DNA from: Fodinibius salsisoli
GTDB lineage: Bacteria > Bacteroidota > Rhodothermia > Balneolales > Balneolaceae
Length of the DNA stretch: 64,000 bases
Direction of reading: 5' to 3'
Assembly: GCF_026229185.1 (NCBI RefSeq)
Contig: NZ_JAGGJA010000008.1
Location: 62,001-126,000 of the forward strand
The translations under genes were made by a program, and so were the position numbers. This document shows positions 19,076-32,605 of the stretch, one piece after another. Under the pieces are notes generated by a model, which worked only from the letters and a program-made list of their open reading frames with translations, was not told the origin of the DNA and ran no database searches. Every line of letters starts with the position of its first letter. Within the stretch, counting starts at the first letter, position 1.

Positions 19076-19219
19076 GACGTACTTGTTAATCCATTGATTG
19101 ATTCATTTAATAAATTCGGCACTAGTTAGTAGTGCTGGGCATTTCTGAGCTTGGTGTCAAAGATTAATTTTGAGATTTTATTTGATACTTCTCACTGCCT
19201 ACCGCCAACTGCTAACTGA

Positions 19220-26054: not shown

Positions 26055-27767
26055 CTATCCGATGCGAAATTTTAGTTCATCAATTTTGGATAAAATTTCT
26101 CCCCTGTCCATTTCGCGATAGCGTTCGGGGAGTAATTCTTTGGAGGTACATTCAATGACAGCACTTAAGGTCTGCAGCTCAATTTCTTCGGGATAAGTGG
26201 GGGGCAAAAAGTCATTTAAAGCTATATCCAGTATTTCCGGCGTCACTCTCTCTTGATCTTGCGCTGCCGCCCGAAACTTAGCTCTTGTCAATGCTGCTTC
26301 CATATCTGCACCAGAAAATGATTTTAATCCCTGTTCAATTACCTTGGGTACATATTCTTCTGTAAGATCCAGCCCCGTTTTCTTTTTCATGGCTTCAAAG
26401 AGCTCAATTCTTTCTTCCTTTGTGTGGGGAGCAAACAAGGCCAGGTGCTCTTCTGCTCTTCCCTGCCGCTTAAGATCTACCGGCATAAGGTCAGGGCGCG
26501 CCGTCATCAGGAACCAGAGAATACGTCCACGATTCTGCGTGTCACTCATAAACGTAGCAATTTGTGAAAACACTCTGCTTGAGACGCCGCTGTCTCCGCC
26601 GGCATCCCGATCGCCCAGGTAAGCATCGGCTTCGTCAATCATGACGGCTACCGGGGCCATCGCTTTGAGGAGGCTCAAAATCTTTTCCAGGTTTCCTTCG
26701 GTGACGCCCTGCCACTGGCTTCGAAAATTCTTCAGCTTCACCATAGGGATACCCACTTCATTCGAAAAACAGGTTACCAGAAATGTTTTACCCGTCCCCA
26801 CAGGACCGCAAACCAGATACCCCATGGGCAAAACATCACGCCGGCCATTTTTAAGTGCCTGTACCGCCTGACGCAAATGCTGTTTTACCTTCGTATGGCC
26901 CGCTACATTATCCAGGGTATAGTCGGTATCTACGAATTCTAACAAGCCATATGCTTCTGATTCAATGAGCTCTTTTTTGGCCTCTGATAGCCTGCGATGT
27001 GTTATTTTTTCTTTATTCTCTCGGGCATTCGATAATACGCTACGGATGTTAATAAAATTAAGTCCCGCAGTTTGTTGGGCGACTACTTTTTTGCTGACTT
27101 CCGACAACGCCTGAAACTGCTCTTCTTTCAATTCATTACTAACGAACTGTGCCCGTTGCTGCTGATTGGGAATATTAATCCGAATACTATCAGTATATGG
27201 ATTTTGGACGACGGTCTTATTCAAGTCCGCCAGGTTCTCTGTAATAAGTACGGTAGTAAAATCGGCCGCTAAAAACATAGGATCATGAGCCCAGCGCGAT
27301 AGATAAACCATGGAGGTGCGATCTTCGGAACCGGTTGAACCCGCTTCATTCATCGGAATGATGGTTTCGGCATAATCGACAATCAGGGCAATACTTTTAT
27401 TACTGTCAATGCGAACGCGGAAGTATTGCTCGAGTAGCGAAAAGACACGAACCGGATCTTTGGGAAGCTTATCCGCATATTCCGTTCCGAGTAAAGAATC
27501 ACGTCCCGCTAACGCCTGGTTGAAATCCTTTCGGCTTTCCTGATCCCGAAAATAGATGCCCGAAGAGCGATCGTAAAAAATGACATAATCTCGTGCACCA
27601 AAAAACTCCTCAGAAAGAAAAGATTTGAGACGTACAAATTCAGTTGTGGATTCTCGTTTTAAAGGAACCAGGTCATGGACATTTCCATGTAAGATGAACT
27701 GGTTAATCGTACGACTCAAATATTTACGGGCAAATTCCCCGGCCCAATCTGGATAATGATTAAACAT
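26055..27767 (-). CDS. AAA+ ATPase with a degenerate first and an active second module, linked to the PspA locus
   Basis: A 570-residue cytoplasmic protein. Residues 20-40 carry a INQFILHGNVHDLVPL motif and the first module (about 100-210) keeps Walker-B-like (ALIVDYAET, 127-135) and sensor-1-like (TTVLITENL) strands but has no Walker A, so it should not hydrolyse ATP. The second module (about 285-500) is complete: GPVGTGKT at 321-328, Walker B VMIDEAD with Asp378/Glu379, sensor-1 strand FLMTARP and an arginine-finger segment RQGRAEEH (434-441). That layout suggests a hexameric remodelling machine. It is the last gene on the strand of the PspA cluster, after the CNNM gene, and its leader is a tract of eleven 7-bp repeats. 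Its target is unknown; PspA-type assemblies are my inference. Confidence 0.85.
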   Translation of the reverse strand: MFNHYPDWAGEFARKYLSRTINQFILHGNVHDLVPLKRESTTEFVRLKSFLSEEFFGARDYVIFYDRSSGIYFRDQESRKDFNQALAGRDSLLGTEYADKLPKDPVRVFSLLEQYFRVRIDSNKSIALIVDYAETIIPMNEAGSTGSEDRTSMVYLSRWAHDPMFLAADFTTVLITENLADLNKTVVQNPYTDSIRINIPNQQQRAQFVSNELKEEQFQALSEVSKKVVAQQTAGLNFINIRSVLSNARENKEKITHRRLSEAKKELIESEAYGLLEFVDTDYTLDNVAGHTKVKQHLRQAVQALKNGRRDVLPMGYLVCGPVGTGKTFLVTCFSNEVGIPMVKLKNFRSQWQGVTEGNLEKILSLLKAMAPVAVMIDEADAYLGDRDAGGDSGVSSRVFSQIATFMSDTQNRGRILWFLMTARPDLMPVDLKRQGRAEEHLALFAPHTKEERIELFEAMKKKTGLDLTEEYVPKVIEQGLKSFSGADMEAALTRAKFRAAAQDQERVTPEILDIALNDFLPPTYPEEIELQTLSAVIECTSKELLPERYREMDRGEILSKIDELKFRIG

Positions 27768-27771
27768 TCAC

Positions 27772-27848
27772 TTAGCGGTTAGCGGTTAGCGGTTAGCGGT
27801 TAGCGGTTAGCGGTTAGCGGTTAGCGGTTAGCGGTTAGCGGTTAGCGG
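27772..27848. repeat. Eleven perfect tandem TTAGCGG heptamers abutting the AAA+ start codon
   Basis: Eleven identical 7-bp units (77 bases) end 4 bases upstream of the ATG at 27767. On the coding strand the tract reads CCGCTAA repeated, then GTGA and ATG. A TGA codon lies directly before the ATG in frame, so repeat-number change cannot alter the protein; it would alter the distance between promoter and start and the leader. No Shine-Dalgarno sequence is present. A perfect tract of this length is expected to slip during replication. Confidence 0.95.
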
Positions 27849-27987
27849 AGGGTGATGATTTTCAATCTCCCTGTCAAGGATTATTTCTAGTTTCCAATTT
27901 CCAGCATCCAACCTTTAAACTCCAGCTTCCACCTGCCAAACTTAAAACTTTACACTTCTTGCTTCTCACTTTTTATACTTTACTTTC
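27849..27987. other. Pyrimidine-rich gap between the repeat tract and the CNNM gene
   Basis: The 139 bases are made of degenerate short units (TTTCCAATTTCCAGC, CATCCAACCTTTAAACTCC, CTTAAAACTTTACACTTCTT). They contain no gene and no terminator, so read-through from the CNNM gene into the AAA+ gene is possible, and a promoter for the AAA+ gene would have to lie here. Confidence 0.5.
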
Positions 27988-29262
27988 TTAGTCCAGTGTT
28001 ACCAGTTTAATGGTCTCAATTCGGCTGCTTGTGGCCTTGCTGATGATTATTTTATTGCCATCAATGAACAACTCTTCATTTACTTTCGGAATACGTCCCA
28101 GTGAGTTGATGACATAACCGGCTACGGTTTCAAATTCTCCTGATTTATCGGACAATTCAATTTCAGGAAACTTCTCCATCAGGTCTTCCATCTCAATTCC
28201 ACCACTCAGAATGTAGGTGTTGGTGGAAATCTTTTTCATAAACTGATCCTCGGTATCATATTCATCCTGAATATCTCCCACTACTTCTTCCAGGAGATCT
28301 TCGATGGTAACCATTCCAGCGGTACCTCCGTATTCATCAATCACAACGGCTACAGAAATATTCGACTTTCTAAACTCGGTAAGCAAATCCTTGGATCGCT
28401 GTGTTGCCGGCACAAGCTTAACGGGACGCATAATCTCAATTAAATTCTCGGGATGGCTGAACAGATCGTATGCAAAGATAACCCCAATGATGTCATCAAT
28501 GGATTCCTGATATACCAGCAGCTTGGAGAAGCCCGAAGTAATGAAAAGCTTTAAGGTTTCGTCAATGCTCGTTCCTTTCTCTACGGCTACAATATCTGTT
28601 CGGGGAATCATTGATTCCTTAACCCGCATATTGGATAGCTCCAATACGTTGTGCAAAATTTCGGAATCCTCTTTATCCAAATCCTGTCCCCCGGTATCGC
28701 GGAGTTCCTTGAAGATCATCTCCACGTCTTCACGGCTAAATATCTGGTCTTTTGAAACAGAATTGGGCTGTACTAATTTGATTACCATTTTGGAAGCTGC
28801 GTTGGCAATCACAATAAAGGGCTTAAACAAATAATAGCATATTTGCTGGGGAACCGCGATAATTTTCATCCACCAATCCGCGTGGATCCGAAAAAGTGCT
28901 TTGGGTAAGATCTCCCCGAAAAGCATAATAACTACGGAAGCAATAATGGTCTGAAGAATAAGGATGGTCACTTCAGAGGGAAGCGCTCCCACCCAGTTTT
29001 GATAGAGAGTGGTAATTGGAGATACTAAAAAAATCGCCATTAAGGTTGCATACACCACATTCACGATATTATTTCCAACCAGGGTAGTGGTAAGGAATGT
29101 CTCCGGGTTCCGGACAAAATTATTGACCATTCGTCCGGTCCATGAGTCCTTGCGCGATTCAATTTCCAGCTTTAGCCGGTTGGCGCTCACAAAGGCCATC
29201 TCTGATCCAGAGAAGAATCCGCTAAGGAAAATGGTTAAAACTATAAGAAAAAATTCCGTCAT
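27988..29262 (-). CDS. CNNM/CorC (HlyC/CorC) family membrane protein with CBS pair
   Basis: A 424-residue protein with an N-terminal DUF21/CNNM transmembrane domain (about 1-185, beginning FFLIVLTIFLSGFFSGSEMAF), two CBS domains (about 205-330; SMIPRTDIVAVEKG and GTAGMVTIEDLLEEVVGDIQDEYD) and a C-terminal CorC_HlyC domain (about 345-424). Members are implicated in Mg2+ or Co2+ efflux and in envelope integrity; the name hemolysin is historical. It belongs to the PspA-AAA+ gene string on the minus strand, between the enoyl-CoA hydratase gene and the AAA+ gene. Confidence 0.93.
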   Translation of the reverse strand: MTEFFLIVLTIFLSGFFSGSEMAFVSANRLKLEIESRKDSWTGRMVNNFVRNPETFLTTTLVGNNIVNVVYATLMAIFLVSPITTLYQNWVGALPSEVTILILQTIIASVVIMLFGEILPKALFRIHADWWMKIIAVPQQICYYLFKPFIVIANAASKMVIKLVQPNSVSKDQIFSREDVEMIFKELRDTGGQDLDKEDSEILHNVLELSNMRVKESMIPRTDIVAVEKGTSIDETLKLFITSGFSKLLVYQESIDDIIGVIFAYDLFSHPENLIEIMRPVKLVPATQRSKDLLTEFRKSNISVAVVIDEYGGTAGMVTIEDLLEEVVGDIQDEYDTEDQFMKKISTNTYILSGGIEMEDLMEKFPEIELSDKSGEFETVAGYVINSLGRIPKVNEELFIDGNKIIISKATSSRIETIKLVTLD

Positions 29263-30338: not shown

Positions 30339-31229
30339 TTATTCTTTGACACGATTTGAAGGATTTCCACTGGATTCTGAACCGGTTTGTTGCTGTTTTT
30401 CCATCTCCAGGAACTCTGCATCCAGATCTAAATCATTAAAACTTGAGTTGAAAGGTAAGATTTCCCGATCCATATCGTCAATCAGTTGCGATGTTTCTTC
30501 TACCTCTTCAAGCAGGTTATCTAGCTGAAAACCGATCTCTTCGGGCTTACTCATCGTCATCGACTGCTCATAGATATATTGAATAGCATCCTCAATAGTC
30601 TCGAGATGAGTCTCACAGATAAGATATTTTTCTTTGGCAATCTCGAATTTCTTGAGTCGCTTCTTAAGTATACCAACCCGACGATTGGTGGTTCGCTTCA
30701 GACGCTCGGATTGCATATTCTCCATTTTCCGCTCCTCTTTTTGCACCTCCACCTTCAGGCTTTCCTCTACCGATGTATTCATATACAGCTGATAGCGCTT
30801 ATGAAGATCCAACAACGTAAGATAGTTGGAAACCAGCTCCTGTATTTTTTGCCTGATATTTTCCAACAGACCCTGAGAGCTGTAAGGAAGCTTATCAAAA
30901 TTTTCTTTGACCAGCTTAGTCAATCGCTTCAACGTTAAGAATCGCTTCTGGCTTTGAGCATCCAGTTCCTGAAAGGTCGATCGCTCATTATCCATTGCAT
31001 TCTGCTCATGCAACTTCTGATACTTTACCCGTTTCCGATAGCGGGGCAGTCGAGGAAGAATACCCAAATACATCAGCTCCGTTCCAAAAGCCATGGTCAA
31101 AATAAGACTGGATAACATACCCACATCACTCAATACAAAGGCTGATATGGTTGCAATCAGTAACATTCCCAAATTGACGGGATGTAAGAAAGCCTCACGC
31201 GTAAAATTTATGGCTTGCTCTTCACTCAT
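30339..31229 (-). CDS. Membrane-anchored coiled-coil protein of the PspA cluster, function unknown
   Basis: A 296-residue protein with two adjacent hydrophobic helices (about 17-57) that form a hairpin membrane anchor, then a basic PRLPRYRKRVKY segment and a long, highly charged alpha-helical region (about 70-265) predicted by eye to be coiled coil, and a Ser/Asn-rich tail. I recognise no family. Its start codon overlaps the stop of the next upstream gene by 4 bases (ATGA), so it is made together with the 162-residue coiled-coil protein. Topology suggests a cytosolic coiled coil held at the inner membrane, a plausible docking partner for PspA. Confidence 0.7.
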   Translation of the reverse strand: MSEEQAINFTREAFLHPVNLGMLLIATISAFVLSDVGMLSSLILTMAFGTELMYLGILPRLPRYRKRVKYQKLHEQNAMDNERSTFQELDAQSQKRFLTLKRLTKLVKENFDKLPYSSQGLLENIRQKIQELVSNYLTLLDLHKRYQLYMNTSVEESLKVEVQKEERKMENMQSERLKRTTNRRVGILKKRLKKFEIAKEKYLICETHLETIEDAIQYIYEQSMTMSKPEEIGFQLDNLLEEVEETSQLIDDMDREILPFNSSFNDLDLDAEFLEMEKQQQTGSESSGNPSNRVKE

Positions 31230-31714
31230 TGTTTCTGCGATTGATTATTAGCACTATTCTTATTGGACTCAGGACTTGTTTTTTCTTCCGAGCTTGTTGT
31301 ATCCGGCCCTATTGTCTTCTTCACCTGGATGGTATCAGCCTGCTGTTCAATTTCTTTATAAAGCACCCCCATTTCCATCTTCAGCTGTTTAAGGGTTTCT
31401 TTAGCTTTAGCCCGGTTCATCTGTTCATCCAGTTCCTGTTTCTCCACATCCGGAGATGGGCCTTCCCCTGACAAGTCATCCATAGCCACATCCAGCCGCG
31501 CTTCAACAGACGCCAACTTATGCTTGACAGAGTGCAAAAAGCTGTCAAACGATTCCAGCATCTGCGTCTTGTCCATATCTTTGAGAGCCTTCGAAATATT
31601 ATGAGTTTTCTTAGCCCTTGACAGCCGCTCCTTAGCCTCCCGCATTTTTCGGTAATGCGCTTTGTACTCCTCTTTGAGACGTTTACGTTCGTTGCGGCTT
31701 TCTTCGCTCATCAT
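31226..31714 (-). CDS. Small soluble coiled-coil protein of the PspA cluster, function unknown
   Basis: A 162-residue protein, almost all charged alpha helix up to residue 130 (RNERKRLKEEYKAHYRKM; ETLKQLKMEMGVLYKEIEQQ), then a flexible Ser/Thr/Asn-rich tail. No membrane segment and no known motif. It begins with two Met codons, either of which could be used. The leader consists of TTANNGG heptamers (31720-31740) with no Shine-Dalgarno sequence. It lies between pspA and the membrane coiled-coil gene and overlaps the latter by 4 bases. Confidence 0.7.
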   Translation of the reverse strand: MMSEESRNERKRLKEEYKAHYRKMREAKERLSRAKKTHNISKALKDMDKTQMLESFDSFLHSVKHKLASVEARLDVAMDDLSGEGPSPDVEKQELDEQMNRAKAKETLKQLKMEMGVLYKEIEQQADTIQVKKTIGPDTTSSEEKTSPESNKNSANNQSQKQ

Positions 31715-31819: not shown

Positions 31820-32605
31820 TTAAGACTGCGACCGTTCCTTATTTCCAATCGTTTTTCCTTGCTCTTTTTCGGTAGATTCTTCATCAATTTCAATTTCTCC
31901 TCCTTCGGAAGAGCCGACGCTTTTTTCTTTTTCTGTCGTCTCTTCCTTACCCATCTCTGATTTAAACTGTTTGACCAGCTCACTGGCCCGCAGTTTCTCG
32001 GCATTGGCTTCAATTTCCATTGCTTCCGTATCTACGCTATCCAATGCCAATTCCATACGTGCTTCGTTTTTAGCCGTTTCTTCATTCAGCCGATTGACCA
32101 TTTCATCGTGTGTTTGGTCAAGCCCACCTGTTTCAAATTGCTCCAGTGCATCGGCGACCTTTCCCTGCCACTCGGCTCGTTCACTGGCCCGTAAGGCTTC
32201 TTTGGCCTCCTGAATTTTGCGGTCTTTTTCACGAATAAATGCTTTTTTAACTTTCAGCGCTTTCTCATAGGCCTGTTCTGCAAATTTCATCTGCTCTCTA
32301 GAAGTGGAAAGGTTTTCTTTCGCCTTTTCCAGCTGCAGCGCATAGCCTTCGGCAATATCATCGCGATCGGCATTAATAGCCGACTTAATTTTAGAGGTAA
32401 GATTCTCAATTCGGTTTTCGTATTTCTTCACTTCTTTCTGAAGCATGATCATATTGGCCTTCACTGTGGCAATATTTTCATTCATCTGGGGAATTTGGTC
32501 ATTCAAATCCCTAATATTTTGCTCCAAAATAAGCTTGGGATCTTCCATTGAACTTACGAATCCACCGAATAGCGACTTGATAGCACGAATAAAGCGTTTA
32601 AACAT
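31820..32605 (-). CDS. pspA: PspA/IM30 (Vipp1) family protein, ESCRT-III-like
   Basis: A 261-residue PspA homologue. Residues 1-22 (MFKRFIRAIKSLFGGFVSSM) form the amphipathic membrane-binding helix, followed by EDPKLILEQNIRDLNDQI and the long coiled-coil hairpin (about 25-215) typical of the family, then a 45-residue acidic tail rich in Glu and Ser that classical PspA lacks. PspA/Vipp1 proteins polymerise into rods and rings that protect and remodel the inner membrane and share the ESCRT-III fold. No pspBC, pspF or sigma-54 site is seen; instead it heads a string with two coiled-coil proteins and, further on, an AAA+ ATPase. Confidence 0.92.
   Translation of the reverse strand: MFKRFIRAIKSLFGGFVSSMEDPKLILEQNIRDLNDQIPQMNENIATVKANMIMLQKEVKKYENRIENLTSKIKSAINADRDDIAEGYALQLEKAKENLSTSREQMKFAEQAYEKALKVKKAFIREKDRKIQEAKEALRASERAEWQGKVADALEQFETGGLDQTHDEMVNRLNEETAKNEARMELALDSVDTEAMEIEANAEKLRASELVKQFKSEMGKEETTEKEKSVGSSEGGEIEIDEESTEKEQGKTIGNKERSQS

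Follow-up and report, generated by a model that had tools for sequence, protein, structure and literature searches.

The heptamer tract ahead of an AAA+ gene in Fodinibius salsisoli is probably one arm of a dispersed intergenic repeat

A perfect seven-base tract stands directly before an AAA+ start codon in the window, the whole 64,000-nucleotide stretch of Fodinibius salsisoli DNA analysed here. On balance, we think that this tract is probably the expanded, slippage-prone right arm of a dispersed, replication-polar, non-coding intergenic repeat, with any effect on the AAA+ gene being incidental. The repeat consists of a conserved 38-bp sequence, the head, followed by a right arm with a 7-bp period; in the copies of two genomes a degenerate periodic left arm precedes the head. 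Its copies form a family of related heads with near-fixed spacing between head and array, a period of 7 with a locus-specific unit, frequent flush contact with coding sequence and placement on the G-rich strand. The original prediction, that gain or loss of units may switch the AAA+ gene, is partly supported: the tract and its instability over evolutionary time are supported, and a switch dedicated to this one gene is not. What is new here is the head, its spacing and its polarity. Heptamer arrays ahead of start codons, the TAACTGA and GGGNATC classes, were already known, and the roles discussed for such bacterial arrays in the available parts of the literature are those of gene switch, translation signal or G-quadruplex.

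The head and its heptamer arrays

The tract holds eleven identical TTAGCGG units, as originally described (Tandem Repeats Finder: 11.0 copies, 100% matches, score 154; the next-highest array in the window scores only 53). It spans 27772-27848; the range first given, 27768-27848, takes in the 4-base spacer as well (Table 1). On the minus strand, which is the mRNA strand of the AAA+ gene, it reads (CCGCTAA)11-G-TGA-ATG, and the ATG, 4 bases away as predicted, opens a 570-aa ORF. The TGA abuts the ATG and TAA is present in all frames throughout the array, which excludes an N-terminal extension of the protein, also as proposed. The reported lack of a Shine-Dalgarno sequence is real and uninformative, because such a sequence precedes no more than 49 of the 490 starts predicted in the stretches of this genome that were sampled, where shuffled sequence would give 25.

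Table 1 Features at the AAA+ locus and the second head in the window
Feature	Position	Strand	Basis and remarks
Right-arm heptamer array, (CCGCTAA)11	27772..27848	-	Direct reading; 11.0 perfect copies
Spacer GTGA between array and ATG, holding the in-frame TGA	27768..27771	-	Direct reading
Conserved head, AAATAATCCTTGACAGGGAGATTGAAAATCATCACCCT	27849..27886	-	Pattern match with 2 mismatches; profile match
Within the head: TTGACA, then 17 nt, then CACCCT	27877-27872 (TTGACA); 27854-27849 (CACCCT)	-	Direct reading
Left arm, degenerate 7-bp periodic (GGAAGCT, GGAGTTT, AAAGGTT, GGATGCT, GGAAATT, GGAAACT and further heptads)	27887..27963	-	Lag-7 identity
Downstream gene, 570-aa protein with C-terminal AAA domain (PF00004, residues 318-442)	26055..27767	-	ORF and domain search
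Upstream gene, CNNM/CBS/CorC_HlyC protein; top NCBIfam match GldE, below cut-off	27988..29262	-	Domain search
Second head of the family	19134..19169	-	About 60 nt ahead of a 373-aa ORF; without array in this genome

Two adjacent TTAGCGG units were found nowhere else in the 4.85-Mb genome, and perfect heptamer arrays of at least 4 copies were absent from 400 kb of it, sampled as 20 stretches placed arbitrarily, not randomly, none of which contains a listed head. A chance origin of the tract was rejected on its 100% repeat score and the lack of any comparable array in this sample. General 7-periodicity of intergenic DNA was rejected as the source too, since the sample showed only a slight excess (lag-7 ratio 1.15; 1.25 at lag 14 and 1.40 at lag 22). 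An assembly artefact is unlikely, given that the separate assembly of genome G004 has an array of comparable length (10.1 copies) at the same spot; shorter arrays are found there in G008 and G003. The gap of 220 bp between the CNNM/GldE-like gene and the AAA+ gene holds left arm, head, array and GTGA. The end of the CNNM/GldE-like gene is recognisable upstream of the AAA+ gene in many relatives' loci, and the N-terminal ~280 residues of the AAA+ protein are without a Pfam match. Rfam searches returned nothing in the window and just one 5S rRNA and one tRNA at ten head loci.

The head lies directly upstream of the array and has the consensus AATTAATCCTTGACACGGAGnTTAGAAATCGGCAGCCT in 22 copies. 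We searched 12 genomes of the genus with a pattern of 20 fixed bases, allowing up to 3 mismatches, and obtained 38 matches, versus 3 for the reversed pattern. Twenty-seven heads, at many different loci, were kept: all 11 matches in the genome of the window, 9 of 10 in G003, 6 of 8 in G004 and the single match in G009. The 11 that were dropped comprised eight weak matches (one each in G001, G008 and G010, two in G002 and three in G011), two located in ORFs (G003:C5 and G004:C4:332403) and one heptad-free match with 2 mismatches, G004:C4:340800. Also outside the 27 are four weak profile matches with heptad remnants behind them (three in G003, one in G004) and, within L282, another head with a TTCTGCC array. 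No head among the 27 lies inside a predicted ORF of at least 90 aa, and head positions +14 to +24 and +35 to +37, which the pattern left unconstrained, are mostly conserved too. A profile built on 22 of the 27 heads had matches at E <= 0.001 in only 4 of 92 family genomes, under strict filters that lose some weak matches; 5 further genomes had one or two weak matches (E 0.03 to 0.09). The window head, itself one of the 22 training sequences, matched the profile at E = 4.5e-7 (32.6 bits).

As in mobile repeats of the MITE/REP type, near-identical copies occur at different loci of one genome: a 35-nt head is identical letter for letter at L179 and L184, and L230 and the site near window position 19135 are 92.7% alike across 96 bp. 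Several copies, moreover, occupy the same orthologous locus in two or three species: the AAA+ locus, an ABC-permease locus (window 19135, G003 and G004) and L180/L240 (G000 and G003). This counts against the dispersed-repeat reading, as it is expected of a conserved regulatory element too. At the ABC-permease locus, the counterparts of the second window head in G003 and G004 bear arrays. The 12-genome comparison gave no exact empty site, the flanks being too diverged. Searches of the available literature on Fodinibius intergenic repeats returned no match, and those on mobile promoters nothing to the point among the entries listed. Elsewhere in the window, a PspA/IM30-like gene (31820-32605) adjoins ORFs 31226-31714 and 30339-31229, for neither of which Pfam or NCBIfam gave a match at E 0.001. 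G004 has a 154-aa ORF at roughly the corresponding position, followed by a match to the 296-aa ORF; the 154-aa ORF has its own head and a 16.9-copy array 3 nt from its start (L192:3031-3148).

A heptamer array follows at nearly fixed distance behind 17 of the 27 heads (right-arm lag-7 identity at least 0.79). At the remaining 10 this identity is 0.19 to 0.43 and, by eye, mostly one or two decayed units are left; in the genome of the window, at least 4 copies stand behind 6 of the 11 heads. The units are CTGCTAA, CCGCTAA, CTGATAA, CCGATAA, CTGATAG, ACCTGCA, TCCTGAC, CTAAATA and TTCTGCC, always with a period of 7. Most of them are alike (CTGNTAA-like), so a shared ancestral array accounts in part for the period being constant. 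TTGA[CT] ends 22-26 nt ahead of the array in 19 of 39 distinct arrays, versus 6 matches at all other positions of 70 nt, in a set that required more C than G on the strand used, from which CTGATAA arrays are absent and in which two entries are CTGATAG arrays taken from the wrong strand. Under the pattern rule, not every array has a head. We take arrays and heads to go together because the head-free 400-kb sample had no array of at least 4 copies.

The left arm is periodic in all 11 copies of the window's genome and all 6 of G004 (lag-7 identity 0.37 to 0.59; in the window copy 0.59, versus 0.28 after shuffling). In G003 it is mostly at the shuffled level and in G009 it is not periodic, a point against the dispersed-repeat reading. 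Four-fold TAACNNN, perfect or degenerate, was found in all 12 genomes of the genus. A second, degenerate class, in which TAAC is kept and the other three bases vary, was seen at L181, L182, L185-L187 and L190 (G000 contigs C7, C9, C38, C39 and C43), several of these with inverted GTTANNN heptads ahead, around a short loop. A second locus with conserved geometry is formed by L196, L197 and L159 (G006, G005 and a third genome of the genus), where similar ORF starts each lie behind a CCAGTAA array (13.7, 6.7 or 5.7 copies), with TTGAC or TTGAT 22-23 nt upstream and otherwise different sequence.

At their head-distal end, arrays often abut coding sequence. The median gap there was 5 nt at starts (21 rows) and 1.5 nt at convergent stops (20 rows), and on the head side 144 nt (41 rows), counted under a looser head rule by which some of the 41 rows are spurious matches. 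Two convergent genes were compared across the 12 genomes. In the genome of the window, the protein of one, which we take to be an acyl-CoA-dehydrogenase-like gene, has the C terminus RELKKEFWG, shared with relatives, and its stop codon is provided by the array. The last residues of the other vary between species, and in G004 the array starts directly past its stop. Arrays are thus flush at convergent stops as well and therefore do not single out start codons.

Orientation relative to replication and to genes

We measured GC skew on the head strand over 16 to 64 kb around the heads, in 23 regions. The skew was positive for 27 of 27 heads and in 23 of 23 regions, and that of the intergenic part was positive in each. 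Third positions of opposite-strand ORFs had positive skew in every region but L194, which has only 100 such positions, and third positions of co-oriented ORFs were slightly negative in one region, L296. Co-oriented ORFs make up 238 of 397 in the same regions, a background of 60%. Against this rate, 23 of 23 regions gives p = 8e-6, or 8e-5 with the dropped heptad-less match counted as an exception; these values overstate independence because the 27 heads are related copies and not independent trials. The downstream gene is co-oriented with 17 of the 27 heads (p = 0.85 against background), and the other 10 face the 3' end of an opposite-strand ORF. Element orientation therefore appears to follow the direction of DNA copying, not that of genes.

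Further matches served as comparisons. The eight chance-like weak matches in other species, an internal negative control, split 4:4 by skew strand, and the four weak profile matches with heptad remnants all lie on the positive-skew strand. So do all 7 further perfect arrays of the genus outside the 27 heads, the G008 array at the AAA+ locus among them, and 6 of 7 degenerate TAACNNN arrays tested. Along contig C1 of G004, head strand and skew reverse jointly between 619 kb and 1,074 kb. The C-rich array itself opposes the G>C bias of its own strand. Against replication polarity stands the 2-mismatch, heptad-less match G004:C4:340800, on the negative-skew strand.

We infer from GC skew that the G-rich strand is the leading strand, backed by ribosomal protein operons and one 5S rRNA gene. 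Third-position skew on the coding strand of the ribosomal protein operons was positive in 4 of 4 genomes of the genus and -0.017 in a control from another genus (G034), and on contig C5 the heads and the 5S rRNA gene have the same direction. Ribosomal protein operons were used instead of 16S rRNA, which was found in only two (G001 and G005) of six genomes.

In the reading that we favour, the array would expand and contract by strand slippage at replication and so homogenise itself, which would explain why unit and copy number differ between species. The head would be a DNA site with polarity that is tolerated, or gets copied, solely in the orientation of fork movement, and the C-rich array would thereby come to lie on the lagging-strand template. 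Copies may spread as a non-autonomous repeat or through gene conversion, as we propose because some heads are near-identical at different loci. The AAA+ gene would neighbour one such copy by position, and a change in unit number would at most lengthen an unstructured 5' leader. If the polarity holds in closed genomes, the question moves from the role of the repeat for the gene to how fork passage builds or keeps seven-base arrays; the genus offers named strains for testing, for example F. roseus and F. sediminis.

A more specific mechanism, which we regard as a long shot, would make the head a polar 7-nucleotide expansion site: fork passage in one direction would repeatedly re-copy seven bases at a fixed distance, whatever their sequence, and machinery at the head would build locus-specific heptamer arrays right up to the neighbouring gene. 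If true, this would explain the constant period with its varying unit, the fixed register and the co-orientation with replication in one step, and the head would then count as a genomic element able to generate tandem repeats itself.

Gene-centred explanations at the AAA+ locus

The strongest rival, which we nevertheless judge improbable, takes the head as a sigma-70-like promoter (TTGACA, 17 nt, CANNYT) and the array as its discriminator and first transcribed bases. Strong head-on promoters would then have been purged, leaving co-directional copies, and array length would tune the leaders of co-oriented genes. The spacing from TTGACA to CAGCCT is 17 nt, and CAGCCT retains A and T, the bases at the two positions where -10 boxes vary least. 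TTGA[CT] and array are likewise about 24 nt apart in other genera (G020, G042 and G078, which contribute part of the 39-array set) despite different intervening sequence, and there is an A-rich stretch upstream. TTGAC-N18-CANNYT occurred 5 times, versus 0.5 expected, in sampled upstream regions with the heads included. The persistence of the element at conserved loci keeps the promoter alive as an explanation, as a conserved regulator would show the same. However, CANNYT is neither TATAAT, the sigma-70 -10 consensus, nor TAnnTTTG, the housekeeping promoter motif of Bacteroidota at -7, which is absent from the head consensus. Also against a promoter, TATATTTGG lies downstream of the element in L180 and L240, and 10 of the 27 heads are without a facing co-oriented ORF, co-orientation being at background. 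The head as a general gene promoter was rejected because TTGAC alone is not enriched upstream of genes (54 versus 59 in shuffled sequence), in a test that is insensitive because TAnnTTTG is not clearly enriched either (40 versus 35).

The AAA+ locus was compared across 12 Fodinibius/Aliifodinibius genomes, one per species. Copy number at the orthologous spot is 11.0 in the genome of the window, 10.1 in G004, 6.7 in G008 (F. sediminis), 3.4 in G003 (F. roseus) and 2.0 in G009. The other seven genomes have fewer than 2 copies and keep the gene; two of these, G001 and G006, have an imperfect TAACTG-like pair there. Three units occur at the spot (CCGCTAA, CTGCTAA and CGATAAC), and the G003 array is without a head and that of G008 has a divergent one. 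The comparison supports the view that the array is unstable over evolutionary time, as the original prediction held. In the AAA+ gene tree, G000, G003 and G008 cluster (support 92/92), and G004, G009 and G005 are left unplaced, so the five array-bearing genomes may have inherited it from a common ancestor, or it may have moved between them.

Such slippage might vary the phase or dose of AAA+ expression, as proposed for hmw1A and hmw2A of Haemophilus influenzae. The perfect array 4 nt from the ATG, with a unit and unit number that vary between species, would suit a switch of this kind. We think it quite unlikely, as the AAA+ gene is conserved across Balneolaceae and beyond (its protein across records labelled Balneolaceae and Rhodothermales) and 7 of the 12 genomes keep the gene with the array missing. 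The same head and array also flank other genes and 3' ends at many loci, and their polarity follows inferred replication in 27 of 27 cases and the gene in only 17. Switching might at most arise as a by-product, with no specific support and at equally long odds. According to the available part of PMC2651432, heptanucleotide tracts in the hmw1A and hmw2A promoters, about 100 bp upstream, alter expression. Those tracts are like ours in being perfect heptamers upstream of a gene with a varying unit number (here between species); ours differs in being part of a dispersed element and in lying 4 nt from a conserved gene.

Neither the window element nor its RNA leader folded better than shuffled sequences (z +1.34 and +1.66), and the predicted unstructured AAA+ leader would suit the promoter as well as a translational role. 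After MacGregor, TAAC heptamers in the leader could recruit ribosomes or an RNA-binding protein where a Shine-Dalgarno sequence is lacking. The TAAC core has the same orientation and place here as in the accessible text of PMC4679880, and Shine-Dalgarno sequences are few in this genome. We consider this, too, quite unlikely: units without TAAC exist (CTGATAG, TCCTGAC, ACCTGCA, TTCTGCC and CTAAATA), many arrays face the stop codons of convergent ORFs, and heptamer arrays are rare whereas starts without Shine-Dalgarno sequences are common.

Known heptamer systems and arrays outside the genus

In the accessible text of MacGregor (2015; PMC4679880), TAACTGA arrays stand ahead of start codons in Beggiatoaceae, with arrays also in Cyanobacteria and five Bacteroidetes; translation control or rearrangement is suggested, and in a sample from M. 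aeruginosa the arrays between stop codons share one orientation. Like them, the window copy is an intergenic, forward tandem heptamer with a TAAC core, in a long array a few nt from a start without a canonical ribosome-binding site, though only 17 of the 27 heads in the family face a co-oriented ORF. Its unit is CCGCTAA and not TAACTGA, the TAAC core alone being shared; related loci carry CTGATAA, which equals TAACTGA. Unlike the arrays in that text, those described here have a unit that varies by locus, a conserved head at near-fixed spacing, a position facing gene ends as well as starts, and an orientation that follows replication. The accessible text does not mention 'leading strand', 'replichore' or 'GC skew', and our literature search, in the portions of the sources available, found neither a head-like partner sequence nor replication polarity for TAAC heptamers.

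The GGGNATC and GGGGA(C/T)T intergenic heptamers of Xanthomonas and Nostoc form G-quadruplexes in vitro, according to the accessible text of Rehm et al. (2015; PMC4692102). In that text the neighbouring ORF sits just 5' of the repeat as read on the G-rich strand, whichever its direction, the G-rich strand is antisense upstream of ORFs, and the xanthomonad heptamers are reported to have no preference for the leading or lagging strand. Our arrays likewise abut the ORF located 5' on the G-rich strand, in whichever orientation it runs. They differ from those of that text in that all 27 heads of the genus lie on one strand class and in the unit itself: judged from its sequence alone, TTAGCGG has no run of three G, and we rejected a G-quadruplex reading of the tract. 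In DNA folding, the array's G-rich strand did better than shuffled sequences (z -2.12; 5/200).

Four-fold TAACTGN was found in at least 22 of 394 genomes of the phylum. For skew we chose 26 regions outside the genus, from among the matches listed plus earlier searches. Their perfect TAAC arrays lay 21:5 on the positive-skew strand (p = 0.0025), a weaker polarity than in the genus, and the downstream ORF was co-oriented in 14 and opposite in 12. Counting against replication polarity, G119, of the same phylum, follows it in one of three arrays, and it is broken by G025, G042 and one of two G182 arrays.

On a 9.6-kb contig of G042 (L372, G042:C43:1-9582) we observed eight same-orientation copies of a different head, TTTGATCTTTCTGTTTAGAATAAAAAAATT, 0.7-1.6 kb apart and with heptads on one or both sides. 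Short ORFs separate them, among which are those for a PIN-domain protein, a DUF5615 protein and, with a match below cut-off, an MqsA-like protein; the whole looks like a cassette-like cluster. All eight are on the negative-skew strand of the contig, which is short and has its predicted ORFs mostly on the other strand. This arrangement would fit a cassette-type recombination site, attC-like or other, with the heptad arms as a hairpin, and in L179 the arms do pair (z -2.61). We give this explanation very little credence for the Fodinibius copies, which are dispersed; shuffled sequences fold at least as well as the window copy, and attC core sites were not noticed when we inspected by eye. With up to 2 mismatches allowed, the TTTGATCTTTCTGTTTAGAATAAAAAAATT head had no match in the remaining 91 family genomes; a ninth copy is present on contig C42 of G042.
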